This document shows, one piece after another, positions 2,825 through 10,437 of a DNA stretch of 20,145 bases. Location of the stretch: positions 1 to 20,145 of the IMG/VR virus record IMGVR_UViG_3300001450_000448. The stretch is one strand, 5' to 3'. Source of the DNA: a virus. Every line of letters starts with the position of its first letter. The stretch's first letter is position 1. The notes beneath the pieces were generated by a model, which was not told the origin of the DNA, searched no databases, and was given only the letters and a program-made list of their open reading frames with translations. The translations under genes and the position numbers were made by a program.

Positions 2825-3337
2825 CTATCCTAAAGCTATGGCTAGGGCCGTAGCTGTACCAGCTATAGCCGTATTATTATCTAGTTGAAGACTATCCCCA
2901 ACGCTCACTACGCCACCACCAGAACCCGCGCCATCAGCATAGACAATGTCTGTGCTACCATTAGCGATAGTGACCACAGTTCCTGATCCTTGTTTAATCT
3001 GTGCGCTGCGGCTCCCAGTCAAGGAGTTTTTTATAATGAAGAATTTTGCTGCTGTGTTAGGCGCAATCGTGACCACATTGGTTCCACCAAGGTCAGACCC
3101 GCTGTCAATAATGTTAATGACGGAAAACATACCTGTCTGAACATTGCTTTGTCCAGAAGTAGGAGAAGCCACTCGTATAGTAAGATCAGTTGTTAAATCT
3201 GAAGCTGTTAGGTCTGCCGCACCTGTTACTCTGTCAAAAATATCAAAGTTGAAATTGGTGACATCGCCCCAAGTACCAGACAACTCACCTGTGGCTGGTT
3301 TTTCTATACCCAGGTTTGTACTAAACGAACTAGCCAT
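2825..3337 (-). CDS. Tail fibre-type protein (170 aa)
   Basis: Opens SSFSTNLGIEKPATGELSGT and WGDVTNFNFDIFDR, an N-terminal signature I recall from phage fibre proteins that attach to the tail. The later part has FFIIKNSLTGSRSAQIKQGS and IVYADGAGSGGGVVSVGDSL, beta-prone and typical of fibre shafts. At 170 residues it is short for a receptor-binding fibre, so it may be an adaptor or one of several short spikes. AGGAG lies before the ATG. Confidence 0.7.
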   Translation of the reverse strand: MASSFSTNLGIEKPATGELSGTWGDVTNFNFDIFDRVTGAADLTASDLTTDLTIRVASPTSGQSNVQTGMFSVINIIDSGSDLGGTNVVTIAPNTAAKFFIIKNSLTGSRSAQIKQGSGTVVTIANGSTDIVYADGAGSGGGVVSVGDSLQLDNNTAIAGTATALAIALG

Positions 3338-3346
3338 ACATTGCTC

Positions 3347-3904
3347 CTATGCCGCTATATCTGTCCACGAAGGCGTTTGTGACGGGGTGTCCTTCGTCCA
3401 GTCTGTTGATACGCCTGCCACTGCTACCCAATTTGGAGTTTGGTCAACATCAATTTCATCATATATCAGGACTATACCAGTATTTGCAGACGCTGTAACC
3501 CCCGTAACTAAATACTTAGATTCTATAACAGGGATAGTAGTTGCATTTCCTGTTGCGGTGCTTCCTGTAGCACCTACATCAGCGTTTGCAGTAACACTTT
3601 CAGAGCCTACCGCTGAAGTAGCAGTAGAACCCGTAACAGCATATTTAGACTCTAAAACAGGGACGGTGGTGGCAAGACCGTTTGCACTTGCCCCAGTTGG
3701 GACAATTACACAGGTTCCTGTAACACCCTCATCCCCAAGACTTGTTGTGGCTACTGCCCCAACGCCAGCTACATTAGCCGAACAGTTTGTGGTTTCCTCA
3801 CCAAGCGAGGTGGTTCCTACAACGCCCGTAACAGCAACAGGAAGCGCCTCGTTCCAAGCTAGTTGGCCCCAAGTGCCGCGTCCCCAACCATTAATAATTG
3901 CCAC
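3347..3904 (-). CDS. Repeat-rich tail fibre-type protein, GTG start (185 aa)
   Basis: The start codon is GTG at 3904, with GGAG seven bases upstream. The N terminus INGWGRGTWGQLAWNE is a Trp/Gly-rich motif recalled from marine phage fibre-type proteins. It is followed by irregular units with TTSLGEE / TTSLGDE, and by a duplicated TVPVLESKYAVTG / TIPVIESKYLVTG pair. The C terminus is VDQTPNWVAVAGVSTDWTK. The repeats and lack of charge suit a beta-structured fibre or tail surface protein. Confidence 0.65.
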   Translation of the reverse strand: MAIINGWGRGTWGQLAWNEALPVAVTGVVGTTSLGEETTNCSANVAGVGAVATTSLGDEGVTGTCVIVPTGASANGLATTVPVLESKYAVTGSTATSAVGSESVTANADVGATGSTATGNATTIPVIESKYLVTGVTASANTGIVLIYDEIDVDQTPNWVAVAGVSTDWTKDTPSQTPSWTDIAA

Positions 3905-3916
3905 GGGATTACTCCA

Positions 3917-4369
3917 TTACGCTATGCGGATAATGGCATTACTCGCATCGGCTGTCGGAAACTGCACTGTAAAAGTACCAGAAGTAGATGTTTTGTTAGA
4001 GGTAAAATCTAAGACTGCTACTGCTTTATCGCCGTTTGTGTCATTGTAAATCAAGGCACCCATCGCAGTTATAGTAGCGGTAGTGAAGCTAAGATCCGCA
4101 AAATCAGTAAGGGCCGTAGTTCCAGAGGTGGTTGGAGCAATATTAGTTAACGCAGTTCCACCTGTAGCGTAAGACCCACTTGAAGCAACTTCTCCTGTTG
4201 TAACAAAGGCAGTTGTTGCCGCGCCTAAAGTTGCTGTAGAGCTAGATTTTCCACCGCTACTTTCGGCATATAACGCAAGTTTAAACGAATTACCGTTTGT
4301 AGCAAAATTATGTGTGCCTAACATCAGTTCTTGCTTAAATGATGTACACATCGCTTGTGCAATAGCCAT
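3917..4369 (-). CDS. Tail-region virion structural protein, beta-rich (150 aa)
   Basis: Opens AIAQAMCTSFKQELMLGTHN and continues NSFKLALYAESSGGKSSSTA, then SATL-like Thr/Ala repeats, AMGALIYNDTNGDKAVAVLD and a conserved-looking end FTVQFPTADASNAIIRIA. I recognise this overall pattern from many phage tail regions, where it is annotated as a structural or hypothetical protein. It is beta-prone and lacks enzyme motifs. GGGAG precedes the ATG, which overlaps the upstream stop (TAATG). Confidence 0.7.
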   Translation of the reverse strand: MAIAQAMCTSFKQELMLGTHNFATNGNSFKLALYAESSGGKSSSTATLGAATTAFVTTGEVASSGSYATGGTALTNIAPTTSGTTALTDFADLSFTTATITAMGALIYNDTNGDKAVAVLDFTSNKTSTSGTFTVQFPTADASNAIIRIA

Positions 4370-4656
4370 TACAGTCTCCCTATAGCTTGGGCTAGTTCCA
4401 GTTGACCCGCTTCACGGACTTTCGCACAAATTGTAGCACGTTCTTCCTTTCTAGCCAACTGTACATAATAATGCACCAGATTGTGAACTTTATCCTTAAA
4501 AGCCTCAGCTTGAAGTCTAATAGGTTCAGGAGCATCGTCAGAAATATAAATAATTTTGTTTGCTGCCATTTCCGCAATTTGATCATTAGATAAGCCTCCG
4601 TTGTCTGAGGTTATAATGTTTACGGCTCCCACCGTAGCTACACTTAAATCAAACAT
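4369..4656 (-). CDS. Small conserved helical phage protein (95 aa)
   Basis: I start it at ATG 4656, preceded by GGAAGG at seven bases; the longer frame begins with TTG at 4671. It overlaps the Rossmann-like gene by eight bases. After a short beta start (FDLSVATVGAVNIITSDNGG) it has LSNDQIAEMAANKIIYISDD, PEPIRLQAEAFKDKVHNLVH and a C terminus with REAGQLELAQAIGRL. I recall the same protein as a partner of the Rossmann-like gene in several phages. Function unknown; probably a structural or chaperone-type helper. Confidence 0.7.
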   Translation of the reverse strand: MFDLSVATVGAVNIITSDNGGLSNDQIAEMAANKIIYISDDAPEPIRLQAEAFKDKVHNLVHYYVQLARKEERATICAKVREAGQLELAQAIGRL

Positions 4657-5326
4657 TATCGTGCCTTCCAAATAAGATAGGGTTGCTTTCCACGGGCTCT
4701 GGCGGCATAACTTCTGATTGTTTTGTTATCACTAGCCCTCCATTTTCTACCATTTGAACAAATGGGTCATCAAGTCTATGGTATCCATATAGCTTTTCGT
4801 TGTCAGGAACATTCGTGTCTAATAAAGTAGACCTATGGGCCACTTCAATTTTAATCCCCTTTGAAACAGCTATAGCGCACCAAAACTCAACACATGCCCT
4901 GCCTGATTCCGCCATACTTACATCTCTGTAAGTATAGTCAATTCCATAAAGACAAATCTTAGTTGCTTTTGCCCAGATAGCATAAGCAACAGCATAAGCA
5001 ACGGTGTTGTTAAAATAACAGTAGCCAAGTTCAGTAGCTACTTCTTTGAGGGGAAACAGTTCTAACTGTTTTACTCGTTTATCTAACTGACAAGTAATAA
5101 TAGGTTTTTTGTTCTGTTTTAAAAACTTACGAGCAATACCCGTTTGAGATCCAGCGTTTTCTGAATCAAGAAACCTAGACACAGGATCCATCATAAACGT
5201 TTTATCAACGTGAATAATACCACCAATACAGTTTATACCCCATACTTCGTCAAATTCTTCAGAGGCAACTCGCGCAGATATATAATCAGCGTAGCTGCTT
5301 CCAAGCCCAACAATTGCTATTTTCAT
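4649..5326 (-). CDS. Rossmann-like conserved phage protein of unknown function (225 aa)
   Basis: Starts MKIAIVGLGSSYADYISARV, a beta strand and Gly-rich loop as in nucleotide-binding folds. Further conserved-looking parts are FDEVWGINCIGGIIHVDKTF (25-44), FNNTVAYAVAYAIWAKATKI (105-124), LYGIDYTYRDVSMAESGRAC (126-145) and the HRSTLLD segment (164-170). The layout recalls the MptE-like/DUF115 group and similar sugar- or nucleotide-handling proteins, but the match is by shape only. It is unusual to see an enzyme-like protein between neck and fibre genes. Both ends overlap neighbours by a few bases. Confidence 0.65.
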   Translation of the reverse strand: MKIAIVGLGSSYADYISARVASEEFDEVWGINCIGGIIHVDKTFMMDPVSRFLDSENAGSQTGIARKFLKQNKKPIITCQLDKRVKQLELFPLKEVATELGYCYFNNTVAYAVAYAIWAKATKICLYGIDYTYRDVSMAESGRACVEFWCAIAVSKGIKIEVAHRSTLLDTNVPDNEKLYGYHRLDDPFVQMVENGGLVITKQSEVMPPEPVESNPILFGRHDNV

Positions 5327-6174
5327 GTCTTGTTTGCCCTTACTAGCCCTTCACGATATGCGTCTGTGTTCTCTACACCATCAGCGTAGTTCTTCAGCCT
5401 TTGAAGAGACTCTGCATACCTAGCTATGTATAACTGAAGTATGTCTGTCTCGCCCTTCATAAATGTATAAGCCTCAATTAATGAAGCATACAACAGAGCA
5501 TTAGGGGCATTTTCGCTTACCCATGTTAAAGTAGAATCAGCACCAGTAGAAACAACTGTGCCTGTTGCACCGCTTGTTGCTCCTGTAACTGTTTCACCTA
5601 CTGTGAAATCTGTGCTAGGAATAATAATCCTAGATGTGGTGGATGTTAAAGCCTCTCCAATTGTGGTTGTTGCGCCACTTGTGCTACCTGTAATTGTTTC
5701 ACTGTCAACAAAAGTCCCAGTAACACTGCTTAAAGTTAACACAAACTGACTTACAGTTAGGCTATCTGGCCTATAAAAATAATGCAATTCAGCAGAGTAA
5801 CTGGTGTCAGGAACAGGAGACAAAATAAAGTTTTGATAATCATAAACAGCGTAATATTTTGGAGTTCCAGTTGCAGATGTAGGATTAAACTCTTGTATAA
5901 AATTAACGTCTTTCTGTAATAAAAATTCTTTAGTGCTAGAATTTGTAACACTTAAGCTAAAAGAAGCTAAGTAATCTGTGGGAACAGCTAAGAACTGGTT
6001 ATCAGAAGTTGTTGTTCCAGTTACGTTCTTGCGAAAATAGTCTAAATCAACTTCTTTTAATATTCTTTCTTCTGCATTTTTAATGAAGAAACTAAGGTTG
6101 CTTATAAAAGTAGCCTCAGAGTTTTCTGTCCATTGTTGCAAAGCTGTCTTTAATGTTGAATATGTAAAGCTCAT
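5323..6174 (-). CDS. Connector/neck or tail tube protein with an inserted repeat domain (283 aa)
   Basis: The N-terminal part has YSTLKTALQQWTENSEATF, NLSFFIKNAEERILKEVDL and DYFRKNVTGTTTSDNQFLAV; the C-terminal part has NAPNALLYASLIEAYTFMKG and RYAESLQRLKNYADGVE. I recall both halves as one continuous family in marine phages, placed in the neck or tail nozzle. Between them, residues about 143-213 are a beta-rich insert with two related units, ETITGSTSGATTTIG and ETVTGATSGATGTVV. The host family normally joins YFYRPDSLT-like and WVSENAPN-like segments more directly. Assigning a precise ring position is not possible. Confidence 0.7.
   Translation of the reverse strand: MSFTYSTLKTALQQWTENSEATFISNLSFFIKNAEERILKEVDLDYFRKNVTGTTTSDNQFLAVPTDYLASFSLSVTNSSTKEFLLQKDVNFIQEFNPTSATGTPKYYAVYDYQNFILSPVPDTSYSAELHYFYRPDSLTVSQFVLTLSSVTGTFVDSETITGSTSGATTTIGEALTSTTSRIIIPSTDFTVGETVTGATSGATGTVVSTGADSTLTWVSENAPNALLYASLIEAYTFMKGETDILQLYIARYAESLQRLKNYADGVENTDAYREGLVRANKT
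5536..5748 (-). repeat. Inserted domain with two GETVTG-TSGATG repeats
   Basis: Codes for residues about 143-213 of the connector protein. Two units about 35 residues apart share E-T-(I/V)-T-G-x-T-S-G-A-T-x-T. The motif recurs, from memory, in surface-exposed phage structural proteins as a beta-turn repeat. The reading frame is continuous through it. Confidence 0.6.
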
Positions 6175-6491
6175 GTTGTCACCGTTACCGTTCCTAAACT
6201 AGCAGTAGCCTCAAAGCTATTTAGTTCGGTTCCTATTATGCCAAGACCAGTGTTGGTATAAACAACAAAAGCCATAAAATCTTCACCTATTTGAATGTCT
6301 GGACGAGCATCACGCAAAGATTCTGCATCAATTGTATGTCTAACAGATTCTATTTGAGGATGCTTTTCTTCGTATTCGTCTTTTCCAACAAGAAGCCCAT
6401 TCCACTCCTTTCTCATGTCGCGCAAACGATACCTAAATCCAGATCTGTCAGAAATACCATAAGCATCTTTCCCAGCGGCAAATTTACCCAT
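6171..6491 (-). CDS. Conserved virion protein with a Cys-less zinc-ribbon-like N terminus (106 aa)
   Basis: The N terminus has SDRSGFRYRLRDMRKEWNG (14-32) and then KDEYEEKHPQIE (37-48). From memory, relatives in cyanophages carry CDxCGFRY and a second Cys pair at the same places, i.e. a zinc ribbon; this protein has no Cys at all. The C-terminal 35 residues are beta-prone (TGLGIIGTELNSFEATASLG, then TVTVTT), like a small virion domain. It is encoded between two connector-like proteins, with TAATG and ATGA overlaps, suggesting a neck or tail component. Confidence 0.65.
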   Translation of the reverse strand: MGKFAAGKDAYGISDRSGFRYRLRDMRKEWNGLLVGKDEYEEKHPQIESVRHTIDAESLRDARPDIQIGEDFMAFVVYTNTGLGIIGTELNSFEATASLGTVTVTT

Positions 6492-7159
6492 TACCTAATC
6501 CTGTAGAATTGAAGGTTGGGGCTTACATTAAACGATGCTCTATCACGATCTTCTGCCTGCGCCTTATCAAACTCTTCATCATATATGGTTTTTAACACCT
6601 GTATTCTTTCTGGCGCTTTCTTAATGGACAGGTAGTAAGCAAGTCCAGCAGCTAAACAGGGATAAAATCTAAACGGAACATCTACCGTGTTGGAAAAAGT
6701 GTCAGCGTCATCAATTCTTGTCAGGCAATCGTAAATCAGTACATCTGTACTGTTTTCAGGAGTAGGCCAGATTTTGATTACAGGTGTTACCTGACGATCA
6801 ATAAAAAACTGCGAAGGCCTAGATTGAGTGTCTTTTGAATTTATTGATATATAAGAATCTCTGCTTATTCTTGACATGGACAAGTCAGAATCGCTTCTTC
6901 TCACAACCATAGACAGAACATCAATAACGTCTGCATCAATAGTATAACTAGCAGTGCCTTGCGTTAAAGCTTGGGTACGCTGCGCAATAGTCCATTGATT
7001 AAGGCCGCGATTAGCCCAATCAGCAAACATTAAATTTAAAGAACGCTTGGCGGTCTTTAGGTCGTAACCAGTGCGAACCTCTAATCCACATCTTTCAAAA
7101 GCTTCTTCAATGTAATCACTTACATCTAGCTCAAAGTTAGTTGACCCAGAAACAGTCAT
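6491..7159 (-). CDS. Head-tail adaptor or connector-like protein (222 aa)
   Basis: Contains FELDVSDYIEEAFERCGLEV (8-27), RTGYDLKTAKRSLNLMFADW (28-47) and ANRGLNQWTIAQRTQAL, then VPFRFYPCLAAGLAYYLSIK and the C-terminal AEDRDRASFNVSP. This succession is common in podovirus-like marine phages, where it is usually taken as an adaptor or tail tube component below the portal. It is mainly helical at both ends, as expected for a portal-binding adaptor. The exact ring assignment (P22 gp4-like, or T7 gp11-like) cannot be settled by eye. Confidence 0.7.
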   Translation of the reverse strand: MTVSGSTNFELDVSDYIEEAFERCGLEVRTGYDLKTAKRSLNLMFADWANRGLNQWTIAQRTQALTQGTASYTIDADVIDVLSMVVRRSDSDLSMSRISRDSYISINSKDTQSRPSQFFIDRQVTPVIKIWPTPENSTDVLIYDCLTRIDDADTFSNTVDVPFRFYPCLAAGLAYYLSIKKAPERIQVLKTIYDEEFDKAQAEDRDRASFNVSPNLQFYRIR

Positions 7160-7836
7160 TATTTATCATCCGCATACAGGTTGTTAAAAATCTGATTCAC
7201 ATCCATTGTATAGTCTAAATCTGATTTTGAATAGTGTATATGCTGTGAGGGCAAGAAATCAGGAGCGCCTTGCCCAGTTTCAAACCATGCTGGATGTGTA
7301 GTACGAACACGGTTATTAGGCAAAGCAACGATATTTCCAGTATATTTACCCGCGTCCAAAAGCTCTAAAACATGACTTTGTTTGTGCTGCGCTGGGTCAT
7401 CAGCTATTTCGCTTTCCGTGTAATCTACTGTAAAATAGTATTTTGCTGGGAAAAAGTCTGAACCTATTTTCGCCAACCAAGGGCAAGGGTGAGTTCTTTC
7501 CATACGGTAAACAGCATGCGTATGAGACATACAATCCCAAGGTTGAGCCAAATGCACGGGCATCGGTTCAGGCCACTCTTCAAAAGGAGTGTCTCCAACT
7601 AACGCTGTAATGGGCATACGAGCCCACATCGCACCGCCATGAACATTAGGGTCATCAGTACCATCTACTTCGCATCCAGTAAAAATCATCTGAAAACTTA
7701 AGCATCTATTTGGTATGGTAGTAACCGCAATAGCCATGCCGTGCAAAAATTCACCATGATAACGCTCGTGATTTACCGTATACTCACGGCGAACCCAGCA
7801 CTTAAAGTGAGGTATATTGCTTTGTAAAAAAGGCAT
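7159..7836 (-). CDS. Conserved phage hypothetical protein (225 aa)
   Basis: A soluble, His/Trp/Pro-containing protein with VRREYTVNHERYHGEFLHG (about 15-33), MPVHLAQPWDCMSHTHAVYR (about 92-111) and YYFTVDYTESEIADDPAQHK (about 132-151). The pattern is familiar from marine phage genomes without a function. It is encoded just upstream of the connector-like proteins, so it may belong to the neck or tail. No catalytic motif is certain. The start follows the previous stop by one base, and its TAA joins the next ATG as TAATG. Confidence 0.65.
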   Translation of the reverse strand: MPFLQSNIPHFKCWVRREYTVNHERYHGEFLHGMAIAVTTIPNRCLSFQMIFTGCEVDGTDDPNVHGGAMWARMPITALVGDTPFEEWPEPMPVHLAQPWDCMSHTHAVYRMERTHPCPWLAKIGSDFFPAKYYFTVDYTESEIADDPAQHKQSHVLELLDAGKYTGNIVALPNNRVRTTHPAWFETGQGAPDFLPSQHIHYSKSDLDYTMDVNQIFNNLYADDK

Positions 7837-9845: not shown

Positions 9846-10437
9846 AGAAAAAATTCATCATATCAATCGTACCAACTGTGTATTTAATAGATAAACCGCT
9901 TTGAAACAAAATCCCTTCATCTGGGATAGTATTATCTAGCGTTGTATTATCTGTGCCAATGGTTCTTGCCTTAAATAATACAGTCCCATCCTCTGGTGTT
10001 CCATCAACAAACTCAATAACACCTGCTGTTCCGCCAGATACTATTGAATATCCTTTAAGTCTAACTGGCCCACCAAAAACAGCTTGAGCCGCAGTAGCAA
10101 GAGATCCTACAATTATGTTCCCTGCAAACTGTGCAGAACTTGTAACTGAAGTAACTGTTTTAAAATATTTAGCTCCATCTACGTTTTCAGCAGAACCAGT
10201 AGAAGTAATTACTTCTGTTATCACGTTGTCAAAAACATCTGTACCGACAATAGTATTACTTTTGCCGTTGTCACTTGTTCCTGCCGTTGTCACTGATAAG
10301 ACTCTGGCTCCGCCAGAAGCAAATGCAGTATTTGCTAAAGTTGCAGCAGTATTTGGTCTAGCGGCAGTGACAATAAAATCATCATCCGCTACTACTTCAT
10401 CGCTGATAAACTGGACTTTTACGTCTGAACGACCCAT
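9838..10437 (-). CDS. Probable virion structural protein (199 aa)
   Basis: A beta-prone, Thr/Val/Gly-rich protein that starts GRSDVKVQFISDEVVADDDF. It has repeated short strands with turns (GNIIVGSLATAAQAVFGGP; GYSIVSGGTAGVIEFVDG) and no enzyme motif. Composition is like the neighbouring 243-aa protein, suggesting a head or connector-surface component. AAGGAG lies directly upstream and is contiguous with the preceding hairpin's T-run. The stop overlaps the next gene by eight bases. No named family is recognised with confidence. Confidence 0.6.
   Translation of the reverse strand: MGRSDVKVQFISDEVVADDDFIVTAARPNTAATLANTAFASGGARVLSVTTAGTSDNGKSNTIVGTDVFDNVITEVITSTGSAENVDGAKYFKTVTSVTSSAQFAGNIIVGSLATAAQAVFGGPVRLKGYSIVSGGTAGVIEFVDGTPEDGTVLFKARTIGTDNTTLDNTIPDEGILFQSGLSIKYTVGTIDMMNFFYA

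Follow-up and report, generated by a model that had tools for sequence, protein, structure and literature searches.

A Rossmann-type protein of the GT42/MptE fold group in the structural operon of an environmental phage, a candidate virion-modifying enzyme

What does a protein with a Rossmann-type fold do among the structural genes of a phage, i.e., does it act on the virion, on the host, or as a part of the assembly process itself? The question is raised by a record of 20,145 bases (IMG/VR record IMGVR_UViG_3300001450_000448), hereafter the window, meaning the whole stretch of DNA that was analysed, where the minus strand carries a structural operon composed of a portal gene, two SU10-type adaptor genes, ORF A, ORF B, p150 and further genes. 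The portal has cultured relatives in DSL-LC04 and in the pelagiphages HTVC023P and HTVC027P and, from the pelagiphage and roseophage relatives of this protein, the window virus is probably marine. An earlier note on this DNA had likened ORF A to MptE-like/DUF115 and GT42 proteins, had proposed for it a non-structural, possibly modifying role, e.g., on fibre or host glycans, and had taken ORF B as its partner.

The ORF A gene and its neighbours

ORF A (4649..5326, minus strand) encodes a GT42/MptE-like Rossmann-type protein of 225 residues, so described from its motifs, profile and predicted fold. Directly upstream, and overlapping it by 4 bases, lies the gene of the second SU10-type adaptor (283 residues; 5323..6174, minus strand), which matches PF24175 in Pfam (E 3.3e-20), the first SU10-type adaptor (222 residues) being encoded at 6491..7159 (minus strand). 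On its other side, ORF A overlaps by 8 bases (4649-4656) with ORF B (95 residues; 4369..4656, minus strand), which is read from an ATG at 4656 to its end at 4369, with a TTG at 4671 as alternative start; the stop of ORF B in turn overlaps by one base with the start of p150 (3917..4369, minus strand), a Ser/Thr-rich protein of the phrog_644 type and a candidate acceptor in the scheme proposed below. The motifs IVGLGSS, LYGIDYTY and ESGRACVEF, as well as the 8-base overlap with a 95-residue protein, are present as the earlier note had described them; it had also placed the pair between neck and fibre genes, of which the neck side stands, with the PF24175 adaptor upstream, and the fibre side is not borne out for the downstream gene p150, phrog_644 belonging to the unknown-function category. 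Elsewhere in the operon, a 225-residue protein (7159-7836, minus strand) just preceding the first adaptor matches phrog_3704 (“ferredoxin,” moron category; E 8e-29) and keeps an identity of at least 76% across the 39 close loci in which it was detected with more than 60% coverage, and the two genes following p150, at 3347-3904 and 2825-3337 (minus strand), rank with the most variable ones of the operon, with median identities in close loci of 40% and 36%, respectively.

No significant match to ORF A was obtained in Pfam, PHROG or NCBIfam, nor any tblastn match at E<=0.01 among 50,697 phage records, including DSL-LC04, HTVC023P and HTVC027P. In IMG/VR, close relatives number at least 360 by single-sequence search and at least 583 by profile search; relatives of the ORF A type were found neither in a search of genome contigs nor in plasmids by tblastn. 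All 85 close loci that were fetched match ORF A without gaps and over its full length of 225 residues, and the gene order second adaptor, ORF A, ORF B and p150 is kept in them as far as each extends. While the identity of ORF A is at least 81% (rounded) in these loci, that of the neighbouring adaptor goes down to about 40%, a contrast that is informative in loci picked by ORF A similarity, where the identity floor itself is not. Against 83 relatives, pN/pS is about 0.12, 44 of the 83 pairs being saturated at synonymous sites. ORF A is a real gene and is strongly constrained, far above chance.

ORF A is also an accessory gene at a fixed place. In DSL-LC04, the adaptor, an ORF B homologue (WJZ48133.1; 33% identity, E 1e-16) and a p150 homologue (62% identity) follow each other in a row without ORF A, and the 80 related loci fetched with DSL-LC04 p145 have ORF B and p145 in every case and a visible adaptor in 79, with neither ORF A nor any other family member in any of the 80. 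In HTVC023P and HTVC027P, the p150 homologue (51% and 49% identity, respectively) comes directly after the adaptor. Since ORF B occurs without ORF A both in these 80 loci and in DSL-LC04, it belongs to the core of the structural operon and is not the dedicated partner that had been supposed, and p150 is what changes with ORF A. From their position and size, HTVC023P gp56, HTVC027P gp66 and CRP-901 gp52 had been considered as ORF A homologues and were discarded, BLASTP showing no similarity; their translations look adaptor-like by eye.

The change in p150 consists of an 8-residue insertion, AESSGGKS in the window (4244..4267, minus strand), which marks the p150s of ORF A-positive loci. It is filled in 75/75 ORF A-positive loci having a complete p150, whereas at most two of the eight insertion columns are filled in the p150s of ORF A-negative loci (80/80). 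Conversely, 80 loci picked by the insertion all had p150 as the matching frame, and ORF A was present in the 78 with enough upstream DNA, in a sample that is partly dependent, at least nine of the 80 loci lying on contigs already fetched through ORF A. Because the ORF A group forms one clade in the p150 tree and in the ORF B tree, and the adaptor tree is compatible with one origin (two changes are needed in the best tree, one in 78% of bootstrap trees), the link between the p150 insertion and ORF A may go back to a single event. A movement of the ORF A, ORF B and p150 block between viruses with different adaptors had also been envisaged, to which the trees gave no support.

A wider viral family and its fold

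Beyond these close relatives, ORF A has a weak tblastn match (E 2) to protein P0004 of the Microcystis phage Mvi-Yong1342-1, which proved real when the ORF A profile was compared with P0004 by hhalign (probability 95.3, E 2e-8). A degenerate pattern drawn from ORF A and P0004 retrieved at least 120 virus stretches and nine MAG contigs, the members so collected being referred to as the wide family. With one wide member, tblastn returned a single record among the 50,697 phage records, that of the Microcystis phage, and a search for related loci with P0004 returned none. The only wide-family member in the phage collection, XAN61349.1, is labelled as a “type 11 methyltransferase” and its gene (PP496355.1 34781-35584) sits before terminase genes, unlike ORF A; the methyltransferase label lacks Pfam support and looks wrong. 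In a contig of a candidate division TA06 MAG (L219, LJUI01000146.1), the family gene is present in two tandem copies at about 1650-2930. No convincing Pfam, PHROG or NCBIfam match was obtained among the members scanned (for NCBIfam, ORF A only), and a survey of the open-licence literature by titles and the starts of abstracts found no paper describing the wide family; a term search of PMC9599517 gave two glycosyl passages and none on Rossmann, MptE or DUF115.

The family was aligned in 89 rows, i.e., 12 ORF A-type rows (of 19) and 77 wide-family rows, the latter being what was left of 90 frames after removal of 5 truncated frames and 8 near-copies (77/85 used). Six residues are invariant in this alignment, namely G7, G128, D130, R143, E147, and Y180, and ORF A carries the family residues G7, W29, F44, P92, Y104, G128, D130, R143, E147, and Y180. 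Respective to the window, G7 belongs to the loop past strand 1 (residues 7-9; 5300..5308, minus strand), G128 and D130 to a G-I-D stretch (residues 128-130; 4937..4945, minus strand), and R143 and E147 to a long helix (4886..4900, minus strand). As the degenerate search pattern itself determines G128, D130, R143, and E147 in whole or in part, it is G7, W29, F44, position 47, P92, Y104, and Y180 that provide independent signs. Position 47 is a His in 75/77 wide rows and an Asp in 86/86 ORF A sequences (Asp47; 5186..5188, minus strand), and this Asp in place of a near-invariant family His sets ORF A apart as a separate subfamily, the pocket of which further differs, by alignment, at positions 45, 170, and 183. 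Conserved polar residues, which the earlier note had suggested looking for, do occur, several being invariant in the 89-row alignment and in the close ORF A sequences. By these comparisons of sequence, ORF A belongs, as a divergent member, to a viral family that has not been catalogued.

An AlphaFold2 model built from the 89-row alignment reaches a mean pLDDT of 77.5, with ten-residue means above 80 over residues 1-170, except for 51-60 (69) and 131-140 (63), and with an unreliable tail past about residue 170; it replaced an earlier model from the 19 close relatives alone (pLDDT 46.6). Foldseek against the PDB gave six matches at E<=0.001, all of them CstII, with modest TM-scores of about 0.44. 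Using VIA-align, the Z-scores were 10.8 for MptE-HPPK (8sd5; 2.8 A, 138 residues), 10.4 for thiamin pyrophosphokinase (TPK), 10.2 for SteA and 10.1 for CstII, all at 2.7-3.3 A; as such, with Z within 1, the predicted structure does not separate sialyltransferases from pyrophosphokinases. Viral-structure neighbours of the model are mostly proteins of uncultured phages, some of which are named MptE-like or DUF115. When the wide-family profile was run by hmmsearch against 177,635 PDB sequences, nine matches were obtained up to E 10, all sialyltransferases, namely eight CstI/CstII and one Pasteurella enzyme (best E 0.0017; E 0.0017-0.034); the profile of the ORF A group alone found no sialyltransferase. 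In Pfam, PF06002 is touched by 2/89 members (best E 0.014) and PF01973 (MptE-like) by 9/89 at E<=1 (best E 0.0056), ORF A giving no match to PF01973 at E<=1 and one wide member scoring 11.6 bits, below the cut-off of 34.6. The first guess of an MptE-like/DUF115 or GT42 fold is backed by the structure comparison and, for the wider family, also by the profile search, and the clear matches are to non-structural proteins, none being to a purely structural family.

These top Z-scores, held by MptE-HPPK and TPK, together with the members touched by PF01973, would suit an enzyme of the MptE/TPK branch, i.e., a pyrophosphokinase or phosphotransferase-like enzyme altering pterin, thiamin, or some other hydroxymethyl compound of the host's metabolism and encoded as an auxiliary metabolic gene in the late operon; against it, the family profile matches only sialyltransferases among PDB sequences.

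The likeness to sialyltransferases does not extend to all their functional residues. In CstII, according to PMC4202792, the catalytic His is His188, and Arg129 and Asn51 bind the acceptor. As judged by sequence, the 89-row consensus has no majority His after D130 as a counterpart of His188, and a counterpart of Arg129 is absent, the aligned position being Ser/Thr (T108 in ORF A); CstII Asn51 aligns with a hydrophobic residue, in a low-confidence stretch of the alignment. Since the GT42 catalytic His and Arg129 are unconserved, ORF A is not filed as a GT42 member, but in the same fold group. A metal-binding acidic motif after strand 3 is presumably a feature of MptE-like/DUF115 proteins; at this site, compared by residue letters rather than by side-chain superposition, ORF A has M45-M46-D47 and the wide family mostly acidic-x-His.

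The missing GT42 catalytic residues can also be read as the mark of a non-catalytic protein, i.e., a ligand-sensing or assembly protein keeping a phosphonucleotide pocket and serving as tail-assembly scaffold or chaperone, comparable to SteA, which is structurally as close to the model as the enzymes are; the much higher conservation of ORF A than of the adjoining adaptors points the same way. In PMC12977500, SteA is described as a putative phosphonucleotide-binding protein, for which a binding rather than catalytic role in cell division is proposed, and because SteA shows that such a pocket can serve binding, this explanation is kept, as an unlikely one. ORF A is absent from similar phages (80/80 loci; no tblastn match) and as such not needed for assembly generally, and a scaffold would leave the sugar genes found with the wide family unexplained. 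A sugar-transferring enzyme remains the preferred reading.

Genomic setting and sugar genes of the wide family

Wide-family genes are often flanked by capsid genes on one side and connector genes on the other. Among the 64 loci whose neighbours were called, a cluster of 25 proteins, the representative of which is a major head protein by PHROG, lies one to three genes upstream, and the other recurrent clusters, mostly downstream, are two of head-tail adaptors (14 and 7 members), one of head closure (8) and one of neck proteins (9), 3 members of the 14-member adaptor cluster being upstream of the family gene; these clusters are named from one tested representative each, and the gene calls for the neighbours follow a simple longest-frame rule and come from IMG/VR records, which are fragments. 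Same-strand neighbours at position -1 have a median Ser+Thr content of 0.24 (n=55), with 36/55 at 0.20 or more, compared to 0.13-0.17 at other positions, and no convincing Pfam match was found in eight of these Ser/Thr-rich neighbours tested. In locus L102, a GNAT-type acetyltransferase (PF13480; 2192-3163) is encoded directly upstream of the wide-family gene, and the -1 gene of L101 encodes, by eye only, a 2OG-Fe(II) oxygenase-like protein. A p150-like protein is present in one of the 89 wide-family loci searched, namely L097 (E 4e-5; six-frame piece at 9957 of the minus strand).

Many enzymes of PF02348, a mixed family, activate sugars as CMP-sugars, and NeuB makes nonulosonic acids. PF02348 was first seen at L104 and then tested across records, in 100 of the 129 wide-family records (L193-L212 and L213-L221 left out), of which 27 were above the cut-off (1.78 Mb; 8/50 and 19/50), as compared to 0/80 records retrieved with arbitrary patterns (2.12 Mb; 0/50 and 0/30) and 0/49 other records, the latter set reusing 25 loci from the p150-insertion search with a pattern one codon short; the difference between 27/100 and 0/80 has a Fisher p of 4e-8, L104 and L111 being near-copies. 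In nine loci, including these two near-copies, the cytidylyltransferase frame overlaps that of the family gene or is separated from it by no more than 225 bases (L104, L183, L204, L166, L175, L187, L123, L171, and L111), and the cytidylyltransferase of L171 has, by eye, the look of an SpsF-type protein. An iterated profile found 24 cytidylyltransferase frames in the 129 loci, all on the strand of the family gene, and 2.16 Mb of other loci yielded no such frame; 20 of the 24 were confirmed by Pfam, those of L097, L124, and L127 were not, and L196 was left out.

NeuB (PF03102) is present in 16/26 PF02348-positive wide-family records (26 of the 27, L111 being left out), in 1/46 PF02348-negative ones (46 of the 73) and in 0/50 arbitrary records (50 of the 80), and in 16/16 cases the NeuB and cytidylyltransferase matches share a strand and are 0.2-3.8 kb apart. 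NeuB is absent from 7/7 tested loci with an adjacent cytidylyltransferase (L104, L123, L166, L171, L175, L183, and L187), two of which are fragments of less than 7 kb, and in the NeuB-positive records whose loci show both, the distance between cytidylyltransferase and family gene is about 5.5-8 kb or more. As adjacency and NeuB do not coincide in these loci, it may be a different sugar that the adjacent enzymes activate, and a different glycan that NeuB serves. In records of the ORF A type, PF02348 was found in 0/20 and NeuB in 0/11. The idea of a glycan modification, already voiced in the earlier note, gains from the co-encoded cytidylyltransferase and NeuB at the level of the family, and finds no such echo in the sampled viruses of ORF A.

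The cytidylyltransferase and NeuB genes with which the wide family is associated, and the proximity of family genes to those of capsid and connector in many phages unrelated to each other, which suggests a virion target, argue further against a pyrophosphokinase altering host metabolites, an explanation we hold to be improbable, and speak for a transferase acting on the particle.

Proposed role and comparison with known systems

GT42 enzymes take CMP-sialic acid as donor (PMC4202792). From what is known of them, of PF02348 and of NeuB on the one hand, and from the fold on the other hand, the wide family is best read as a CMP-sugar transferase. We regard it as rather likely, though by a narrow measure, that the wide family acts as a CMP-sugar transferase on a virion protein, this estimate, like that for self-decoration, being held down by the fact that an adjacent cytidylyltransferase and NeuB do not come together in the seven adjacent loci tested. 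For ORF A itself, a nucleotide-dependent CMP-sugar-type transferase acting on a virion protein is put forward more tentatively, because the ORF A viruses are without both sugar genes and because the pocket differs (Asp47; 45, 170, and 183). In the proposed mechanism, ORF A, from the fold group of GT42, MptE and thiamin pyrophosphokinase, would be made late together with the virion proteins. What the wide-family enzyme transfers to the neighbouring Ser/Thr-rich virion protein would most likely be a CMP-activated sugar, which in some members may be a nonulosonic one resembling sialic acid, and some wide-family viruses may sugar-coat their own particles. If ORF A shares the role of its distant relatives and catalyses such a transfer, p150, carrying the additional Gly/Ser loop, would be the prime acceptor in the window subfamily, a candidate on account of adjacency and one co-segregation, and the activated donor would come from the host. 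Taken as a whole, environmental tailed phages would possess, in or near their head-connector operons, a decoration system of their own composed of a cytidylyltransferase (partly with NeuB), a GT42-fold enzyme and a Ser/Thr-rich virion protein, the ORF A subfamily (Asp47) marking the p150 loop with a host-made donor; in this complete form, the scheme is speculative and somewhat unlikely.

The same fold and the same evidence on the donor could be invoked for a glycosyltransferase modifying the host surface rather than the virion, with receptor masking or superinfection exclusion as outcome, and CstI/CstII do act on lipooligosaccharide (PMC4202792). The placement in a head-tail operon, often beside Ser/Thr-rich proteins, as well as the p150 insertion, points to the particle instead; a host-surface target is considered quite improbable, and the virion stays the preferred target.

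While the family is common in environmental viruses, it is met in one of 50,697 phage records, and a recurrent component of head operons apparently still lacks a name. Virion glycosylation with CMP-activated sugars, if true, would explain why such phages carry sugar-activating and NeuB genes, and would matter for receptor masking as well as for how aquatic phages adsorb and persist; several loci bring enzyme, donor gene and candidate acceptor close together, which offers a concrete test.

Among known systems, the GT42 enzymes CstI/CstII are the main PDB family matched by the wide-family profile, and wide-family relatives are associated with cytidylyltransferase genes; ORF A shares with them the core fold, the glycine loop past strand 1, an Asn (Asn31 aligned to N32) and a G-x-D strand end before a long helix, but differs in lacking a conserved catalytic His and Arg129, in being shorter and in belonging to a virus structural operon. 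The MptE-like 6-hydroxymethylpterin diphosphokinase (PF01973, DUF115) has the highest Z (10.8) and shows a weak Pfam similarity in 9/89 members, yet the best E is 0.0056 and the member shown is far under the cut-off. SteA, involved in cell division of Mycobacteriales, has a C-terminal domain of the same fold (Z 10.2) with a phosphonucleotide-type pocket, but the match covers this domain only (residues 180-335) and SteA is cellular. Finally, a study of Maravista reportedly suggests that mycobacteriophage glycosyltransferases decorate their own virions, which would be the same kind of outcome if the reading of ORF A holds; unlike the mycobacteriophage case, part of the wide family co-encodes a cytidylyltransferase, NeuB, or both.
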